Positions 39,063-54,007 of a stretch of DNA of 64,000 nucleotides are shown here, one piece after another; the first letter of the stretch is position 1; the number at the start of each line of letters is the position of its first letter. Origin of the DNA: Acidovorax sp. SRB_14 (GTDB lineage: Bacteria; Pseudomonadota; Gammaproteobacteria; Burkholderiales; Burkholderiaceae_C). A program made the position numbers and the translations under genes. Location: positions 124,001-188,000 of the forward strand of contig NZ_MWOK01000002.1 in NCBI RefSeq assembly GCF_012932145.1. Direction: 5' to 3'. Under the pieces are notes generated by a model. It searched no databases. It saw only the letters and a list, made by a program, of their open reading frames with translations, and was not told the DNA's origin.

Positions 39063-40397
39063 TCAACCGCGCCGGGCGGCGTCGGCCAGCCGCTCTGCGC
39101 AGGCGCTGGCCTGGGCTGCGTCGCGCGCCTCCACCATCACGCGCAGCAGCGGCTCGGTGCCACTGGCGCGGATGAGAATGCGGCCTGAGCGGCCTAGCTC
39201 GGCCTCGACGGCCCGGGTTTCTTCGGCCAGCAGGGCATTGCATTTCCAGTCCTGGTCCGGCGGCAGGCGCACGTTCAACAGCACCTGCGGGAACAGCACC
39301 AGATCGGCCAGCGCCTGTGCCAGGCTCTGGCCCGTGCGCACGCAGGTCTGCAGCACCTGCAAGGCGCTGACCAGGCCATCACCGGTAGTGTGCTTGTCGA
39401 GCACCAGCAAGTGGCCCGAGCCCTCTCCGCCCAACATCCAGTGGTGCTGGGCCAGCGCTTCGAGCACGTAGCGGTCGCCGACCTTGGCGCGCACGAACTT
39501 CACGCCGCGCGCCTGCAGGGCCAGCTCCACCGCCATGTTGGTCATCAGCGTGCCCACCACCCCGGGCACATGCTCATCGCGCCCCATGCGCTCGCACACC
39601 ATCAGGAACAGCAACTCATCGCCGTTGTACAGGCGGCCATCCGCGTCAACCATCTGCAGCCGGTCGGCATCGCCGTCGAGGGCGATGCCGAAGTCGGCGC
39701 GGTGCGCACGCACCGCCTGCACCAGCGCGGCCGGGTGCGTGGCGCCCACGCCGTCGTTGATGTTGACGCCATCGGGGGTGCAGCCGATGGCAATGACCTC
39801 GGCGCCCAGCTCATGGAACACCATGGGCGCAATCTGGTAGGCCGCGCCATGGGCCGCGTCCACCACGACCTTGAGGCCGCGCAGCGTGAGGTCGTGGGAA
39901 AAGGTGCTCTTGCAGAACTCGATGTAGCGGCCTGCGGCATCGTCGAGCCGGCGCGTCTTGCCCAGCGAAGCCGAATCGGCCCACACCGGGGGCTCGTCCA
40001 GCGCGGCCTCGACCGCCAGCTCCCAGGCGTCGGGCAGCTTGGTGCCCTGGGCGCTGAAAAACTTGATGCCATTGTCGGGAAAGGCATTGTGGCTGGCAGA
40101 GATCACCACCCCGAGGCTCGCGCGCTGGGCGCGGGTGAGGTAGGCCACGCCGGGTGTGGGCAAGGGTCCGAGCAGCACCACATCGACGCCGGCGGAGTTG
40201 AAGCCGGATTCGAGCGCGCTCTCCAGCATGTAGCCCGAAATGCGCGTGTCCTTGCCGATCAGCACCGTGGGGCGCTCTTCGGTCCGCTTCAGTACGCGGC
40301 CGACGGCATGCGCCAGGCGCAGCACAAAATCGGGGGTGATGGGCGCCTGGCCGACGGTGCCCCGAATGCCGTCGGTGCCAAAGTATTTTTGAGTCAT
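39063..40397 (-). CDS. glmM: Phosphoglucosamine mutase
   Basis: GlmM interconverts glucosamine 6-phosphate and 1-phosphate for peptidoglycan and lipopolysaccharide precursors. The 444-residue protein has the start [20 protein letters not shown], the phosphoserine loop [19 protein letters not shown] (Ser near 105), the metal loop [16 protein letters not shown] (about 243-258), and the sugar-recognition segment [19 protein letters not shown]-terminal phosphate-binding [15 protein letters not shown] is present. Length is standard. Usually the next gene is folP; here a molybdoenzyme gene lies in between. Confidence 0.98.
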
Positions 40398-40490
40398 GGA
40401 GTCGGTGTGACGCTGCTGTTTTGTCGCATTTGAGTCTAGCGCACGGCGCGGCCGCCCATGTCCCTCTCGGCCCGCAGTGCCCACAAAGCT

Positions 40491-40526
40491 AAAAATCCCC
40501 GCGAGGCCGTGGCCGGCATCGCGGGG
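40491..40526 (-). terminator. Rho-independent terminator of the molybdoenzyme gene
   Basis: On the minus strand a CCCCGCGA stem arm pairs with TCGCGGGG, with further GC pairs in the loop (GGCC/GGCC), and is followed by ATTTTTAG. It lies 25 nt after the molybdoenzyme stop. This separates that gene from glmM, which needs its own promoter. Confidence 0.85.
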
Positions 40527-40551
40527 CTGCGCAGGGGGCCAAGGGCCGGGG

Positions 40552-43248
40552 TCAGGGCTTGGCGTTCTTGAGCAGGAACTCCAGCACCAGCTTGCGCTCG
40601 CCGTCGTCCAGGCCGGCCCGCGGGAACATGCTTTGCGTGATGCCCAGCCACTGCGTGCCGTTGAACTGGCCAGGGTCGCGCGGGCCATGGCAGACCGTGC
40701 AGCGCTGGTAGAAGATCTTCTCGCCCGGGCTCAGCGACGCCATCGACTTTTCCTTGAGCGCCACCGCGCGGTCCAGGCCATAGAACTTCTCGTCGAATTG
40801 GACCGTCCGCTTGACCGACTTGGAAGGCTCGAAGGCGCGCGTCGGGCTTTCCGGGTCCTTGCACTTGCGCAGCTTGGCCAGGCAGGTGTCTGCCGTGGTG
40901 GCCTGGCTCAGCGCGCTGGCACGCCGGCTGCTGGTCAGGAAGTTGACCAGGCCGTTGTTGCAGCGCCCCTTGCTGTCGAGTTGCGGCCAGCCGCCTTCGT
41001 AGATGCTGACCACGCCGGGCATGATCTTGTCGGACAGCACGGCCCCGACGACGATGGAGCCGCGGTCGTTGTAGAGCTCGACCAGGTCACCATTCTTGAT
41101 GCCGCGCTCGCGGGCATCCTGCGTGTTCACGACCAGCGGCTCGCGCCCCTGCACCGCATACAGCTTGCGCAGCGGCTCGGCGTTGGCCATTTGCGAGTGC
41201 AGGCGGTAGAAGGGGTGCGGGCTCACCACATGCAGCTCGCCCTTTTTCGCGTTGCCCAGGTACTCGGCAGGTTCGAGGAACTTGGGCATGGGCGGGCAAT
41301 CGTCGAGCTGGAGCTTGTCGATGGTGGCGGAATACATCTCGATCTTGCCGGTGGGGGTGTGCAGCGGGTTCTTCACCGGGTCGGTGCGGAAATCGCCGTG
41401 GCGCACCCACTTGCGCGCCTCCTCGGGCACCTTGATCTCGGCCACGCCGGCCTCCCAGAACTTCTCCCACGGCAGTTGCGCCGCGGCCGAGCTGCCCTCG
41501 TAGGCCAGTTTGACGTAATCGAGCGAGGTGAGGCCTTCGGTGAAGGCGTATTCGACGCCGCACAGCGCCGACAGGCGGCGGAAGATTTCAAAGTCGTCGA
41601 GCGCATCGCCCACCGGCGCAATCACCTGCTTCATGGCAAAGATCTTGTCGATGCCATAGGTGCCGCCCGAAGAGATGTCGTTGCGCTCGAGTGTGGTGGT
41701 CGCCGGCAGCACGATGTCAGCCCAGCGCGTCGAAGCCGTCCACCAGCAGTCTTGCACCACGATCGTGTCCACCGTCTTGAAGGCACGGATCAGCTCGTTG
41801 ATGTCCTGCTGGTGCGACAGCAGGTTGTTGCCGGCGTTGTAGATCATTCCGACATGGTCGGGATACTGGTAGGTCGTGCCGTTGTAGGTGAACGATTTGC
41901 CGGGGTTGTTCAGCATCTCGCTGATGCGGGAGGCAGGGCAGATTTTCTTGACCGGGTTGCGGCCCTGCGACATGCCGCGCGGGCCCGTGCCACCCGACTG
42001 CGGCATGCCGCCGCCGCCGTAGTGCCAGCTGAAGCCCACGCCCTGACCAGGCAGGCCGATGTTGCCGACCATGCAGGCGAAGTTGACGATGGCCCAGTAC
42101 GGCATTTCACCGTGGTGCGCGCGCTGGATGGCCCAGGAGCCCGCGAACTGCGTGCGCTTGCTGGAAAACAGGTCGGCCAGTTCGCGGATCTTGGCGGCGG
42201 GAATGCCGGTGATCGCGGCGGCCCACTCGGGCGTCTTCGCTGGCGTGCCATCGGCGTCCTTGCCCAGCAGGTACGCCAGGAAGCGGTCAAAGCCCACCGT
42301 GTATTTGTCGATGAACGCCTGCTTGTGCTTGCCTGTCGTGTAGACGTGGTAGCCCATCGCCAGGAACAGTGCGGTGTCGGTGTTGGGAACGATCTTGACC
42401 CACTCCGAACCCATTTTCTCGTCGGTGGTGGTGACCTGCGGGTTGATCGACACAAATTTCACCCCCGCCTTCTTGATCGCGTCCCAGTGGTCGTACATCT
42501 CATGGTCGGCCACGGTGTATTCAATGCGGTTGTTCTTGTTCGGGTCGCAGCCGATGAACACAAACACTTCGGTGTTGTCGCGCACCTGCTCCCAGGCGGT
42601 CTGGGCCGAATACACCTCCATGTCGCCGATCACATACGGCATGATGATTTGCGCCGCACCCCCCGAATAATCGCCCGTGGTGACCGAGCAGCCGCCCAGC
42701 AGGTTGAAAAATCGGCCCTGCAGCACGTTGGGGCGAAAAATGCCGGCATGCGACCAGCCGCCATACGAGCTGCTGAACACGCCCTCGTTGCCGTGTTTTT
42801 CGATGGTGTCGAGAATGGCCTTGGCGGTCAGGCCCAGTGCGACGTCCCAACTCACCTCGACGAACTCTTCCTTGCCGCGCAGCTCGGGCTTGCGGTTGCC
42901 CTGCAGTCCGTCCAGGTAGGACTTGCGCACCATCGGTGCCTTGATCCGGGTCTTGTCATAGGTGCGGCCCAGCACCCCCAAGGTCAGCATCTCGGTCGGG
43001 CGGGCGTCGGCGCGCGTGGGGGTCACTTTTTCCAGTCGGCCATTTTTCACCGATGCGATGAAGGGGCCGTAATGGGTGGCATGCGCCACTGTGCCCGTCC
43101 AGGTGGCGTAGGCAATGCCAGGCGCCGAGGTCGCAGGCGTTTGCGCAAAAGCCCGGGCAAAAGGCCCCACCGGAAACAGGCTGGCAGCCAGACCTGCCGT
43201 GCCGACCGCGCCAGCAGCGCCGAGTAGATTGCGTCGAGACAATGCCAT
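40552..43248 (-). CDS. TorA/DMSO-reductase-like molybdoenzyme with C-terminal cytochrome c domain
   Basis: The 898-residue protein has a twin-arginine leader ([20 protein letters not shown]), a TorA/DorA-type molybdopterin body lacking the N-terminal iron-sulfur cysteines ([19 protein letters not shown]), the conserved [14 protein letters not shown] block, and GDYSGGAAQ (near 195), where Ser is the expected molybdenum ligand. Guanine-dinucleotide binding regions follow ([16 protein letters not shown] and [15 protein letters not shown]). The last ~60 residues form a monohaem cytochrome c: CTVCH at about 850-854, a Trp and a distal Met ([10 protein letters not shown]). This tail resembles the C-terminal haem domain of TorC. 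Predicted: periplasmic reductase of S- or N-oxides that carries its own electron-entry haem. No torC, torD or regulator genes are adjacent. The ATG at 43248 sits at the Tat signal. Confidence 0.88.
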
Positions 43249-43279: not shown

Positions 43280-43308
43280 AGGGTAACCCCTGAGACATTT
43301 AATGACAA
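43280..43308 (-). promoter_or_regulatory. Candidate promoter of the molybdoenzyme gene
   Basis: On the minus strand, TTGTCA (43308-43303) and TACCCT (43285-43280) are 17 nt apart, 32 nt before the start codon. The -35 is good (5/6), the -10 weak (3/6). The rest of the 279-nt gap to folP has no gene I can see. Confidence 0.4.
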
Positions 43309-43527
43309 GAATCAAGGGACCAGTTGCCAACACCAATGAACTCGGCATGCGCCAGGTCAACATCCCGTCACATTGGCTGCGCAAAAAACCGCAACAGCGC
43401 CACCAGACCACAGGCACGGGCACGGGCACGTTGTCACGCCCGACGCGGTACCAGACGCCGCCAGGGAAAAGACGCGGTGCTCGTCACGGCGCACCCTGCT
43501 TGGAGGGTCCTGGGTCGGACAGTCGTT

Positions 43528-44391
43528 CTATGGGCGCTGCGGCACAGGGCTTGCAGCCGCTGCCGTGCCCGATTCCATAGCGCGCCAGACCGCCAGGGCC
43601 TGCACCGTTTCGCGCACGTCATGCACGCGCACGATGCGCGCACCGCGCTCCACGGCGAGCAGCGCAGCGGCCACGCTGGGCTGCAGCCGCTGGTCCACGT
43701 CCAGCCCCGTGACAGCGCCCAGCGATGATTTGCGCGACCAGCCTGCCAGCACCGGATAGCCCAGCGCCAGCAGCTCCCGCTGGCGTGCCAGCAGCGCGAA
43801 GTTCTGTTCCACGGTTTTGCCGAACCCAATGCCGGGGTCGAGCACAATGCGGGTCTTTTCGACCCCTAGCGCTTGCAGGGCATGCGCTGATTGCTCTAAA
43901 AACAGGAGCACTTGCGGCAGCACATCGCCCACCATGGGCGCAAGCTGCATGGTCTGGGGGTCGCCGTGCATGTGCATCAGGCAGACACCGCAGCGCGGGT
44001 GCCGTGCCACCACCTGCGCCGCACCGGGCTGGCGCAGCGCCCAGATGTCGTTGACGATGTCGGCACCCAGGTCGAGCGCCGCCTGCATGACCTCGGGCTT
44101 GTAGGTGTCGATGGAGATCGGCGCACCCAGGCCGACCGCGCCGCGCACCAGCGGCAGCACACGCGCCAGTTCCTCGTCCAGGCCCACGGCCGGGCTGCCG
44201 GGGCGGGTGGATTCACCGCCGATGTCGAGGATGTCGGCACCGTCCTTGAGAAGCTGCTCGCAGTGGCGCAGCGCCGCAGCAGTCGAACCATGGCGCCCCC
44301 CATCAGAGAAGGAGTCCGGGGTCACATTGACGATGCCCATGGTGAGCGGGCGTGTCAGGTCCAGGGTGAAACGGGTGGTTTGCCAGAGCAT
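43528..44391 (-). CDS. folP: Dihydropteroate synthase
   Basis: FolP joins pterin pyrophosphate and p-aminobenzoate in folate synthesis and is the sulfonamide target. The 287-residue TIM barrel has GIVNVTPDSFSDGG (about 18-31), DILDIGGESTRPGSPAV, ISIDTYKPEV, the ND in DIVNDIWAL, MHMHGDPQTMQ, LDPGIGFGKTVEQN, and GWSRKSSLGAVTG. The ATG at 44391 is chosen because a terminator for ftsH ends just upstream. A palindromic repeat copy lies inside the gene (43863-43904). Confidence 0.98.
   Translation of the reverse strand: MLWQTTRFTLDLTRPLTMGIVNVTPDSFSDGGRHGSTAAALRHCEQLLKDGADILDIGGESTRPGSPAVGLDEELARVLPLVRGAVGLGAPISIDTYKPEVMQAALDLGADIVNDIWALRQPGAAQVVARHPRCGVCLMHMHGDPQTMQLAPMVGDVLPQVLLFLEQSAHALQALGVEKTRIVLDPGIGFGKTVEQNFALLARQRELLALGYPVLAGWSRKSSLGAVTGLDVDQRLQPSVAAALLAVERGARIVRVHDVRETVQALAVWRAMESGTAAAASPVPQRP
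43863..43904 (-). repeat. Dispersed palindromic repeat, copy 8, inside folP
   Basis: In the sense direction of folP the stretch reads TTTTTAGAGCAATCAGCGCA, then TGCCCTGCAAGCGCTAG. The T-run, AGCGC box and AAGCGCTAG box fit the family. It encodes LFLEQSAHALQALG in frame, in a variable helix of dihydropteroate synthase, without an obvious change in protein length. Confidence 0.55.
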
Positions 44392-44400
44392 GGGGATCCA

Positions 44401-44436
44401 GAAAAAAGAAAACAAAAACGGGGCTGCAAGCCCCGT
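44401..44436 (-). terminator. Rho-independent terminator of ftsH
   Basis: An 8-bp perfect stem (ACGGGGCT/AGCCCCGT, loop TGC) is followed on the minus strand by TTTTTGTTTTC and another T-run. It lies 27 nt after the ftsH stop, and folP starts 10 nt further on, so folP must have its own promoter or rely on readthrough. Confidence 0.92.
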
Positions 44437-48492: not shown

Positions 48493-48918
48493 TCAGGCCG
48501 CCTGTTTTGCAGGGCTGCGCAGCGTGTGCCACAGCACCGTGAACGCGCAGGCCCATTGCGCCAGGTACAGCACGCTGCCCACGCTGTGCCACAGCCGCAG
48601 GTCCTGGCGCGCCACGATGCGCGGCGCCACGCCGAACTGCGACAGCAGCGCCAGCAACAAGCCACCGACTATAAAAACAATAGCTGCTTTCGCCCATGGG
48701 TATTGGGTTACAGAGCCTTTTGGCCTTGAAACAAGCAGTAAAAGCATGCAGCACACCACCGACACCCAGGTCTGCGCGGCAAACAGGCGCGCGGCCATTC
48801 CGCCCGCCAAGGCGGGCGTGGGCAGGTGGGCGAACAGCAGCGGCACGACCAGGAATCCCACGGTGCTGAGGCTGCCCCACCACAGGGCGGCAATGAGCGC
48901 TGGCAATCGGGCACGCAT
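48493..48918 (-). CDS. DUF4149 domain membrane protein
   Basis: The 141-residue protein has four hydrophobic helices: LPALIAALWWGSLSTVGFLV, WVSVVCCMLLLLV, AAIVFIVGGLLLALLSQF and LAQWACAFTVLWHTL, and the family block APRIVARQDLRLWHSVGSVL. It matches the DUF4149 (TMEM205-like) family, whose role in bacteria is unknown. It follows greA on the same strand, 24 nt away. Helix 3 and the loop before it overlap a palindromic repeat (48671-48725). Confidence 0.8.
   Translation of the reverse strand: MRARLPALIAALWWGSLSTVGFLVVPLLFAHLPTPALAGGMAARLFAAQTWVSVVCCMLLLLVSRPKGSVTQYPWAKAAIVFIVGGLLLALLSQFGVAPRIVARQDLRLWHSVGSVLYLAQWACAFTVLWHTLRSPAKQAA
48671..48725 (+). repeat. Dispersed palindromic repeat, copy 9, inside the DUF4149 gene
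   Basis: The plus strand reads ATAAAAACAATAGCTGCTTT, then CGCCCATGGGTATTGGGTTA and CAGAGCC. The TAGCTGCT and AGAGCC boxes fit the family, while the central arm is diverged. It encodes part of GSVTQYPWAKAAIVF on the opposite strand, in frame. The local base composition is visibly more AT-rich than the rest of the gene. Confidence 0.6.
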
Positions 48919-48942
48919 GACCGGGATTCGCCTTGCCGCGCC

Positions 48943-49419
48943 TCAGGCGTAGCTGACGCCGACGATCTCGTAGCGGCGGATGCCGCCCGGCGCCTGCACT
49001 TCGGCGGTGTCGCCGGACTCCTTGCCGATCAGCGCGCGCGCGATCGGGCTGGAGATGTTGATCAGGCCCAGCTTCAGGTCGGCCTCGTCTTCGCCGACGA
49101 TCTGGTACTTCACGGCGTCGCCCGTGTCCTCGTCTTCCAGCTCGACGGTGGCGCCAAACACCACGCGCCCGCCGGCGTCCAGCGTGGCCGGGTCGATGAC
49201 CTGGGCCACGGAGAGCTTGCCCTCGACCTCCTGGATGCGGCCTTCGATGAAGCCCTGGCGGTCCTTGGCGGCCTCGTACTCGGCGTTCTCGCTCAGGTCG
49301 CCCTGGGCGCGCGCCTCGGCGATGGCGGCAATCACCGCGGGTCGGTCCACGGTCTTGAGGCGGTGCAACTCGGTCTTGAGCTTTTCAGCACCGCGCTTGG
49401 TAATCGGAATGGTGGCCAT
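48943..49419 (-). CDS. greA: Transcription elongation factor GreA
   Basis: GreA rescues stalled RNA polymerase by stimulating transcript cleavage. The 158-residue protein has the N-terminal coiled-coil [20 protein letters not shown], the tip acidic residues in [20 protein letters not shown] (about 41-60), and the C-terminal FKBP-like domain ([34 protein letters not shown]). Length is standard. It is downstream of carB on the same strand after a terminator-like hairpin. Confidence 0.98.
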
Positions 49420-49500
49420 GTCTTGAGTCTCCACATACTTGATGCGCCGCACAGGGCGCGGCGAAATCCGCGTCGGGCATACATGCCATTGCGACGCCCC

Positions 49501-49534
49501 AAAAGCAAACCGCCGCACGTTGCCGCGCGGCGGT
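49501..49534 (-). terminator. Terminator-like hairpin after carB
   Basis: On the minus strand ACCGCCGC pairs perfectly with GCGGCGGT and is followed by TTTGCTTTTGG. It lies 39 nt after the carB stop and 82 nt before greA. The T-run is interrupted, so termination may be partial. Confidence 0.75.
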
Positions 49535-49572
49535 GTTGGTTCAGGCGGCCATTATGCCGCTTTTGGAAATGC

Positions 49573-52834
<3,262 letters not shown>

Positions 52835-52842
<8 letters not shown>

Positions 52843-54007
52843 TCTTGTGTGTCTCCATCAGGTCCGTGAAGCGGTCAAACAGGGTGTCGATGTCCGACGA
52901 GCCAGGCGAGGCCTCGGGATGGCCCTGGAAGCTGAATGCTGGGCGGTCGGTGTGCTCCAGGCCTTGCAAGGTGCCATCGAAAAGGCTCAGGTGCGTGGCC
53001 CGCAAGTGGGAGGGCAGCGCGTCCAGCTCGACCGCAAACCCGTGGTTCTGGCTGGTGATGCTGACGCGGCCGGTGGCCAGCTCTTTCACCGGGTGGTTGG
53101 CGCCGTGGTGGCTGTGGACCATCTTGAACGTCCTGGCGCCGGCGGCCAGGGCCATGATCTGGTGTCCCAGGCAGATACCGAACGTGGGAACGCCGCTGTC
53201 CACGATGGTGCGCACTGCCTCGATGGCGTAGGTGCAGGGTGCCGGGTCGCCCGGGCCGTTGGACAGGAACACGCCGTCGGGCTGCAGCGCCAGCACATCG
53301 GCCGCCGGCGTTTGCGCCGGCACCACCGTCACCTTGCAGCCGCGCTCGGCCAGCATGCGCAGGATGTTGCGCTTGACACCGAAGTCATAGGCAACGACAT
53401 GGAACCGGGGTGCGGTCTGCGTGCCGTAGCCCTGGCCCAGCGTCCATTCGGTTTCTGTCCAATCGTAGGAGGTGCCGGTCGTCACCACCTTGGCCAGGTC
53501 CAGGCCGGCCATGCTGGGCGCGGCCTGCGCAGCGGCAATCGCCTGGTCGATGTGTGCCTGCGTCACGGCTTCGCCCACGGCCAGGCCAACGATGGCGCCG
53601 TTTTGCGCGCCTTGGCTGCGCAGCAGACGGGTGAGCTGGCGGGTGTCGATGTTGGCGATGGCCACGGTCCCCTCGCGCACCAGGTAGGCGGACAGGGTTT
53701 CGGTGGAACGAAAGTTGCTGGCCAGCAAGGGCAGGTCTTTGATGACGAGGCCTGCGGCTTGGACTTTATGGGATTCGACGTCCTCGGCATTGACCCCATA
53801 GTTGCCGATGTGCGGATACGTGAGCGTCACGATCTGCTGGCAGTAGCTGGGGTCGGTGAGGACTTCCTGGTAGCCGGTCATGGAGGTGTTGAACACCACC
53901 TCGCCGACGGTGGTGCCAGTGGCACCAATCGAATTGCCGATAAAGACCGTGCCGTCTGCGAGCGCCAGGATGGCGGGCGGGAAGGTTCCCTGTAGAGACA
54001 AAAGCAC
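52835..54007 (-). CDS. carA: Carbamoyl-phosphate synthase small subunit
   Basis: CarA hydrolyses glutamine and channels ammonia to CarB. The 390-residue protein has the N-terminal synthase-interaction domain ([20 protein letters not shown]) and a class I amidotransferase domain with [18 protein letters not shown] (catalytic Cys near 270) and [14 protein letters not shown]; His and Glu of the triad lie in [10 protein letters not shown]. The start is the GTG at 54007, preceded by CGGAG at 8 nt; an upstream TTG is in frame but inside a hairpin. carA and carB overlap by 8 nt. Confidence 0.97.

Follow-up and report, generated by a model that had tools for sequence, protein, structure and literature searches.

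The window, that is the whole stretch of 64,000 nucleotides of Acidovorax sp. SRB_14 DNA that was analysed, carries at 40552..43248, on the minus strand (ATG at 43248-43246, stop at 40554-40552), a gene for a TorA/DMSO-reductase-type S/N-oxide reductase of 898 residues that ends in a cytochrome c domain similar to the tail of TorC, as assigned from the open reading frame and from Pfam and NCBIfam matches. The position of this single protein had been given exactly, with no strand, in an earlier sequence-only reading, and the combination described there, a Tat leader, a molybdopterin body with a serine motif and a C-terminal haem domain in one chain, was confirmed by the sequence and by the Pfam and NCBIfam matches. 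The leader occupies residues 1-36 (43141..43248), with SRRNLLG, a hydrophobic stretch and AFA before a glutamine, and its type was assigned by eye; the twin arginine is found in all 35 rows of a 51-row alignment that have letters at that point, the other 16 rows, which are references, starting later.

The gene is flanked by folP on one side and glmM on the other, all three on the same strand. The upstream neighbour is a folP (dihydropteroate synthase) frame at 43528..44415 with a Pfam Pterin_bind match, the true start of which is probably an internal ATG, and the downstream one, after a gap of 154 nt, is glmM at 39063..40397 with Pfam PGM_PMM domains; both were named by recognition and are considered to lie outside the system. 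Both neighbours are within 500 nt of the fusion gene in 5 of 80 loci of relatives, which were obtained by scanning GTDB genomes with patterns taken from fused proteins and fetching the best 80 of the 233 returned, so that counts among them are not frequencies. A plus-strand frame of 916 codons at 40477-43227 was rejected as a gene, being an antisense shadow of the reductase gene in high-GC coding DNA. Elsewhere in the window, a 1347-aa plus-strand frame at 48826-52869, antisense to a carB-like frame at 49573-52842 (named by recognition), is likewise a high-GC shadow and not a gene.

An FNR-like box, TTGATTCTTGTCAT, which agrees in 8 of 10 bases with the consensus, lies at 43302..43315, 67 nt upstream of the ATG. 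Boxes with at least 8 of 10 bases were found in 38 of 74 upstream regions (the window and 73 loci) against 5.0 expected from base shuffles, the regions including related loci and thus being less independent than they appear.

Catalytic body and candidate substrates

The molybdopterin body spans about residues 55-800 (40849..43086), as defined by Pfam PF18364, PF00384 and PF01568 (E values of 2.1e-47 for Molybdopterin, 1.2e-21 for Molydop_binding and 9.4e-12 for Molybdopterin_N) and by phmmer, with which DMSO reductase chains match the body (best E value, 9.9e-192) and are its best solved relatives. With respect to the bisC_fam model of S/N-oxide reductases (NCBIfam TIGR00509), the window protein has the expected molybdopterin body with a serine ligand and scores 871 bits over residues 57-810, below the curated cut-off of 1017.55. 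This cut-off was passed in only 19 of the 398 genomes of an even sample of Pseudomonadota, while 65 genomes, the host counted, match the enzyme family at E <= 1e-120, so that many relatives fall under it. The scores against the TorA equivalog models TIGR02164 and NF011682 are also below their cut-offs (640 versus 1465 bits and 679 versus 909 bits, respectively).

The motif GDYSGGAAQ (residues 192-200; 42649..42675) contains S195, which is invariant across the 51-row alignment and is, by alignment with DMSO reductase and TorA, the predicted molybdenum ligand; in TorA the corresponding role belongs to Ser191, according to the available text of PMC11727998. The residue that precedes the serine varies among the relatives (L054-L133), being Trp (GDWS) in 44 of 80, Tyr in 28 and Phe in five, with three unmatched by the pattern.

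Y162 (42763..42765), also invariant in the 51 rows, aligns with the active-site Tyr114 of DMSO reductase. A tyrosine is found at this position in 79 of the 80 relatives, the exception (L084) being a truncated frame, and the alignment shows it to be absent in E. coli TorA. This pattern, together with DMSO reductases being the best solved relatives of the body and with a search of the host genome in which TorT was not found, would agree with a sulfoxide reductase acting on methionine sulfoxide, DMSO or biotin sulfoxide (compare H. influenzae MtsZ), at least in the Burkholderiales branch; such a specificity is a matter of substrate and does not conflict with the fused-haem mechanism proposed below. 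However, E. coli TorZ, which is annotated as a TMAO reductase, has the same tyrosine, and TorS, TorT and TorR are encoded beside 37 of the 80 fusion genes, so that sulfoxides as the main substrates are regarded as a serious possibility, albeit one that we would not bet on.

These counts of regulators were made with identity limits and amount to 40, 37 and 37 of 80 loci for TorR, TorT and TorS, respectively; 37 loci have all three together, and 40 have one or more of them. The assignments were examined with NCBIfam models: the TorT representative exceeds the cut-off of one model (305 versus 200 bits) and is below that of another (238 versus 310); one TorS representative exceeds its cut-off (715 versus 676.5) and another, at 392, is below the same value; the TorR representative, at 272.8 bits, is just under 275. 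Candidates for TorR about 4 kb downstream in L067 and L069 (32-34% identity) were excluded as weak relatives. The three genes accompany the fusion in many alpha- and some gammaproteobacteria, while none of them was found in 22 of the 24 loci L054-L077, which by their titles are mostly from Burkholderiales and several of which have short flanks, the exceptions being the Azospirillum loci L068 and L070. In the lineages that have them, the Tor neighbours appear to be pointing to TMAO, which is the ancestral substrate preferred here. MoaA and MoeA are encoded in 21 and 20 of the 80 loci, respectively. In E. coli, apo-TorC has been reported to bind TorS and to block signalling (available text of PMC11727998); where TorS occurs with no TorC (for instance in L082 and L083, whose genomes, G076 and G077, lack PF03264 matches), the sensor may respond to the immature fused reductase.

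The C-terminal haem domain

The last approximately 72 residues (40555..40770) form the haem domain, as delimited by a match to the torC model, by the alignment with TorC and TorY and by the domain model. It contains a single haem-attachment motif, CTVCH, at residues 850-854 (40687..40701), and M874 (40627..40629), which from the alignments is the probable sixth haem ligand. In the match to the NCBIfam torC model, which has 387 positions, residues 842-897 align with positions 325-380 (E value, 3.7e-6), and the CxxCH motif, a Trp, a Met and an Asn-Ala pair are invariant between 15 fusions and the tails of E. coli TorC and TorY. The resemblance to the TorC tail noted at the outset was thus borne out, and the fused tail is, as judged from these alignments, homologous to the fifth-haem module of TorC.

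A chance occurrence of CxxCH was considered and rejected: the motif, followed by the Met motif, lies within the last 75 residues of all 80 fetched relatives (the best 80 of 233, 58-91% identical over the best segment), it aligns with the TorC and TorY tails, and both haem cysteines, the histidine, W867 and M874 are invariant in the 51 rows. The same conservation weighs against a vestigial or cleaved domain that would take no part in electron transfer. Such a fate could be imagined by taking into account that Tat exports folded proteins and that c-type haem is attached in the periplasm, so that maturation might be inefficient, and that the haem loop is modelled in part with low confidence, its residues 853-856 having pLDDT values below 50 in the full-length model; with the motifs retained throughout the 80 relatives and the 51 rows, loss of function is judged highly improbable.

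Modelled alone, the domain reached a mean pLDDT of 90.4. Foldseek returned 28 matches at E <= 10 and none at E <= 0.001, with c-type cytochromes on top, each of them individually weak, and the two best structural Z scores, both against dihaem cytochromes c, are 7.9 (rmsd of 2.1 Å over 59 residues) and 7.3 (1.8 Å over 56 residues) and sit under the caution line of 8 of the tool used. Among the weak matches is chain B of sulfite dehydrogenase, itself a Mo enzyme of which this chain is the cytochrome subunit. Although all matches are weak, they suggest a cytochrome c fold for the modelled tail. At the border between body and linker, C796 (window 40861-40863) is a cysteine in 42 of 44 fused and in none of 37 unfused rows; a disulfide between C796 and C763 might position the haem domain.

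Distribution of the fusion, partner proteins and electron donor

The search for other TorA-haem fusions, which had been suggested as a check, revealed a large group, all 80 fetched relatives (the best 80 of 233) being fused. The fusion recurs across proteobacteria and is commoner than had been supposed; its presence in separate assemblies from alpha-, beta- and gammaproteobacteria rejects an assembly artefact. Of 25 other genomes in the host's genus, some of them incomplete, six gave an orthologue, and the haem domain is kept in all five orthologues that reach the C-terminus, the sixth being cut before it. One fused copy, at 61% identity, stands on a contig titled Saprospiraceae (Bacteroidota; L103), the sole such title among the 80 loci, and may reflect transfer or a mis-binned contig. 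Of six plasmid-borne fusions, five are annotated only as 'molybdopterin-dependent oxidoreductase' and the sixth has no annotation; with such names, the haem domain is easily overlooked.

Among the 60 genomes of the even sample that were followed (out of the 65 with the enzyme family), the haem module is fused to the reductase in three (G129, G173 and G279) and unfused in 22, G173 counting in both groups; in 20 of the 22 its frame contains PF03264 as well and thus corresponds to TorC; two further genomes gave weak module matches only, and in the remaining 34 no module was found at E <= 0.001. Other arrangements were also observed. In G359 (L187), a frame of 586 aa (581 in the locus, where it runs from base 1) with three CxxCH motifs, the TorC-tail module at its end and no PF03264 match lies upstream of an unfused torA. 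In G459 (L171, 1087-1707, plus strand), a monohaem protein of 206 residues with a leader-like start, which carries the TorC-tail module with no tetrahaem half, is encoded directly upstream of an unfused torA. The module is therefore a movable part, as it is found fused, within TorC, in the three-CxxCH frame of G359 and alone in G459. On contig C1 of G173, a fused copy (about 266558-269080) occurs in addition to a torC-torA pair (about 369810-373406), which offers a natural comparison within one strain.

In a tree of the bodies with the haem domain left out (positions 55-795, 81 rows, quick search, no bootstrap, midpoint root), a single branch with an SH-aLRT of 100 separates the 44 fused rows from all others, E. 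coli TorA, TorZ and BisC among them, so that one origin of the fusion suffices for this sample.

With respect to partners, the earlier observation that no torC adjoins the gene holds, and a profile search with PF03264 (NapC/NrfH/TorC family), which found the E. coli control, gave no match in the whole host genome (3.85 Mb, given as 100% complete), so that a distant TorC in the host was rejected as well. The corresponding observation on torD holds too. No TorD gene adjoins the fusion gene, and with a home-made TorD profile, which does detect E. coli TorD and both host proteins of the TorD/NarJ family, there was no TorD-family match among 6,279 frames of the 80 loci (flanks of up to 9 kb, many shorter). 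The host does hold two PF02613 proteins, one being NarJ (107 bits; cut-off, 59), beside NarG, and the other a TorD-like protein (54 bits versus the TorD cut-off of 132) with a formate dehydrogenase-like protein (455 bits, against a cut-off of 666) encoded some 3 kb away; this TorD-like protein might serve the fusion. The TorD family is absent in 10 of 47 fusion genomes searched. Of all frames in the 80 loci, only one has at least four CxxCH motifs, a 608-residue frame with five near the fusion gene of L111 (374-2200, minus strand).

PF03264 is absent in 33 of the 47 fusion genomes (the titled set) and present in 14, in some of them in TorC-sized frames; since it is also missing in 25 of the 60 even-sample genomes with the enzyme family, chosen regardless of fusion (and present in 35), its absence is only moderately telling. 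From the presence of PF03264 in the 14 genomes, and of both TorC and a fusion in G173, it follows that the fusion is not a strict substitute for TorC. Cytochrome c1, the only subunit by which the bc1 complex was searched, is present in the host and in all 47 fusion genomes, and carries little weight alone as it is common in proteobacteria.

The architecture suggests a respiratory wiring that dispenses with the textbook TorC partner. By taking into account the leader, the two homologous halves and the complement of cytochromes, we infer, with a probability of about 0.6, that the protein is exported by Tat, acquires haem and acts as a periplasmic S/N-oxide reductase with a built-in haem for the entry of electrons. 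The fused domain would take electrons singly from a periplasmic donor, most likely the cytochrome bc1 complex, with or without a soluble cytochrome c in between, and would hand them on to the Mo centre within its own chain, the role that has been proposed for C. jejuni TorB; the ancestral substrate would most likely be TMAO. Because the module is tethered, the membrane-bound tetrahaem half of TorC would not be needed.

The donor deserves particular caution, any quinol-linked cytochrome c reductase being the candidate put forward in the sequence-only reading. Burkholderiales and Rhodobacterales mainly use ubiquinone. According to the available text of PMC6195509, ubiquinol (+90 mV) hardly drives TMAO reduction (+130 mV) through such a complex when the proton-motive force has to be overcome. 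Given these poor energetics of the ubiquinol-bc1 route with TMAO, the same enzyme could be served by another donor, namely some other quinol dehydrogenase of the membrane or a dehydrogenase in the periplasm by way of a soluble cytochrome, and the 14 genomes that keep NapC/NrfH/TorC-family proteins are consistent with such a route. It is nevertheless considered rather unlikely, the known alternative family of quinol dehydrogenases being missing in the host and in the other 33 fusion genomes, and feeding from bc1 remains the preferred route.

The Tat leader also implies, as a consequence of the architecture rather than a result, that the body, already folded, would cross the membrane together with a tail still lacking its haem. 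As a broader proposal, which we advance tentatively and at slightly worse than even odds, the fused proteins would form a large lineage of proteobacterial S/N-oxide reductases, undescribed in the literature searched, in which the fifth haem of TorC has become a domain of the enzyme and respiration has been freed from TorC and TorD; the Mo enzyme would fold and be loaded in the cytoplasm before leaving by Tat with an apo-cytochrome tail, to which haem would be added only once the tail is in the periplasm. Oxide reduction would be coupled to bc1 outside Campylobacterota. No description of a TorA-cytochrome fusion was found in that literature, a search within which few subscription journals fell, and the available portions of PMC6134056, PMC2147049, PMC3305326, PMC2824531, PMC6472588 and PMC5537630 do not mention one.

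The fusion unites in one chain two proteins the contact of which is hard to study; because both partners form a single polypeptide, structure, potentials and electron transfer become directly measurable. The lineage also makes it possible to test bc1-linked oxide respiration, demonstrated for C. jejuni, in other proteobacteria, where the energetics of the quinone are harder. Finally, it raises the question of how a single polypeptide can combine export by Tat with haem attachment in the periplasm.

Comparison with known systems

The arrangement is a conserved one of known parts, undescribed in the literature searched, and has a closer precedent, that of C. jejuni, than the sequence-only reading had at hand. 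The premise that known TMAO reductases use TorC and TorD does not hold in general. In C. jejuni, as far as described in the available parts of PMC6195509 and PMC4148689, the proposed partner of TorA (Cj0264) is a separate monohaem protein, TorB (Cj0265), homologous to the C-terminal domain of TorC, with no TorC; TMAO reduction depends on QcrABC, and losing the TorD homologue FdhM leaves the TMAO reductase activity unchanged. The likeness to the window protein extends to the host, which has no TorC/NapC-family protein and has cytochrome c1, to the lack of a dedicated TorD, and, in the C. jejuni description available, to the association of the TorD-like protein with formate dehydrogenase. The two systems differ in that TorB is a soluble protein, likened here through the description of Cj0265, while the window module is the C-terminal domain of the reductase, and in that menaquinol drives the route in C. 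jejuni (PMC6195509, available text). By this analogy, we read the fusion as a probable covalent form of a TorA-TorB-type pair.

The E. coli TorCAD and TorYZ systems share with the fusion the TorA-type body, the fifth-haem module of TorC and TorY and, in many relatives, the TorSTR neighbours. They differ in having the module on a multihaem membrane cytochrome and a dedicated TorD, neither of which belongs to the window fusion, and E. coli TorA and TorZ fall outside the fused group in the tree. The available text of PMC11727998 reports that the isolated fifth-haem module of E. coli TorC feeds TorA with no significant binding of its own, the tetrahaem half holding the module, and that in models its haem is 17 to 35 Å from the molybdenum. 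Rhodobacter DMSO reductase (DorA) is the best solved relative of the body, with the serine ligand and the tyrosine at the position of residue 162, but its matched chain has no fused haem domain and its partner, DorC, is a pentahaem cytochrome (PMC11727998, available text).

Structures 7l5i and 7l5s also matched the body, the match on the query stopping at residue 800, before the haem domain, and are presumably those of H. influenzae MtsZ. The latter is an S/N-oxide reductase of the same family (PMC5122715, available text).

Outside the family, sulfite oxidase and sulfite dehydrogenase also pair a Mo centre with a cytochrome domain or subunit. They belong to another Mo family. The available text of the review PMC6472588, which describes this pairing, names them as two classes, and they are oxidases or dehydrogenases, not S/N-oxide reductases. 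The same principle of a terminal reductase fused to an electron-carrying cytochrome c domain is found in cNosZ of Wolinella succinogenes, with the difference that cNosZ is a nitrous oxide reductase exported by Sec, according to the available text of PMC8139620, while the window protein is a Mo enzyme with a Tat leader.
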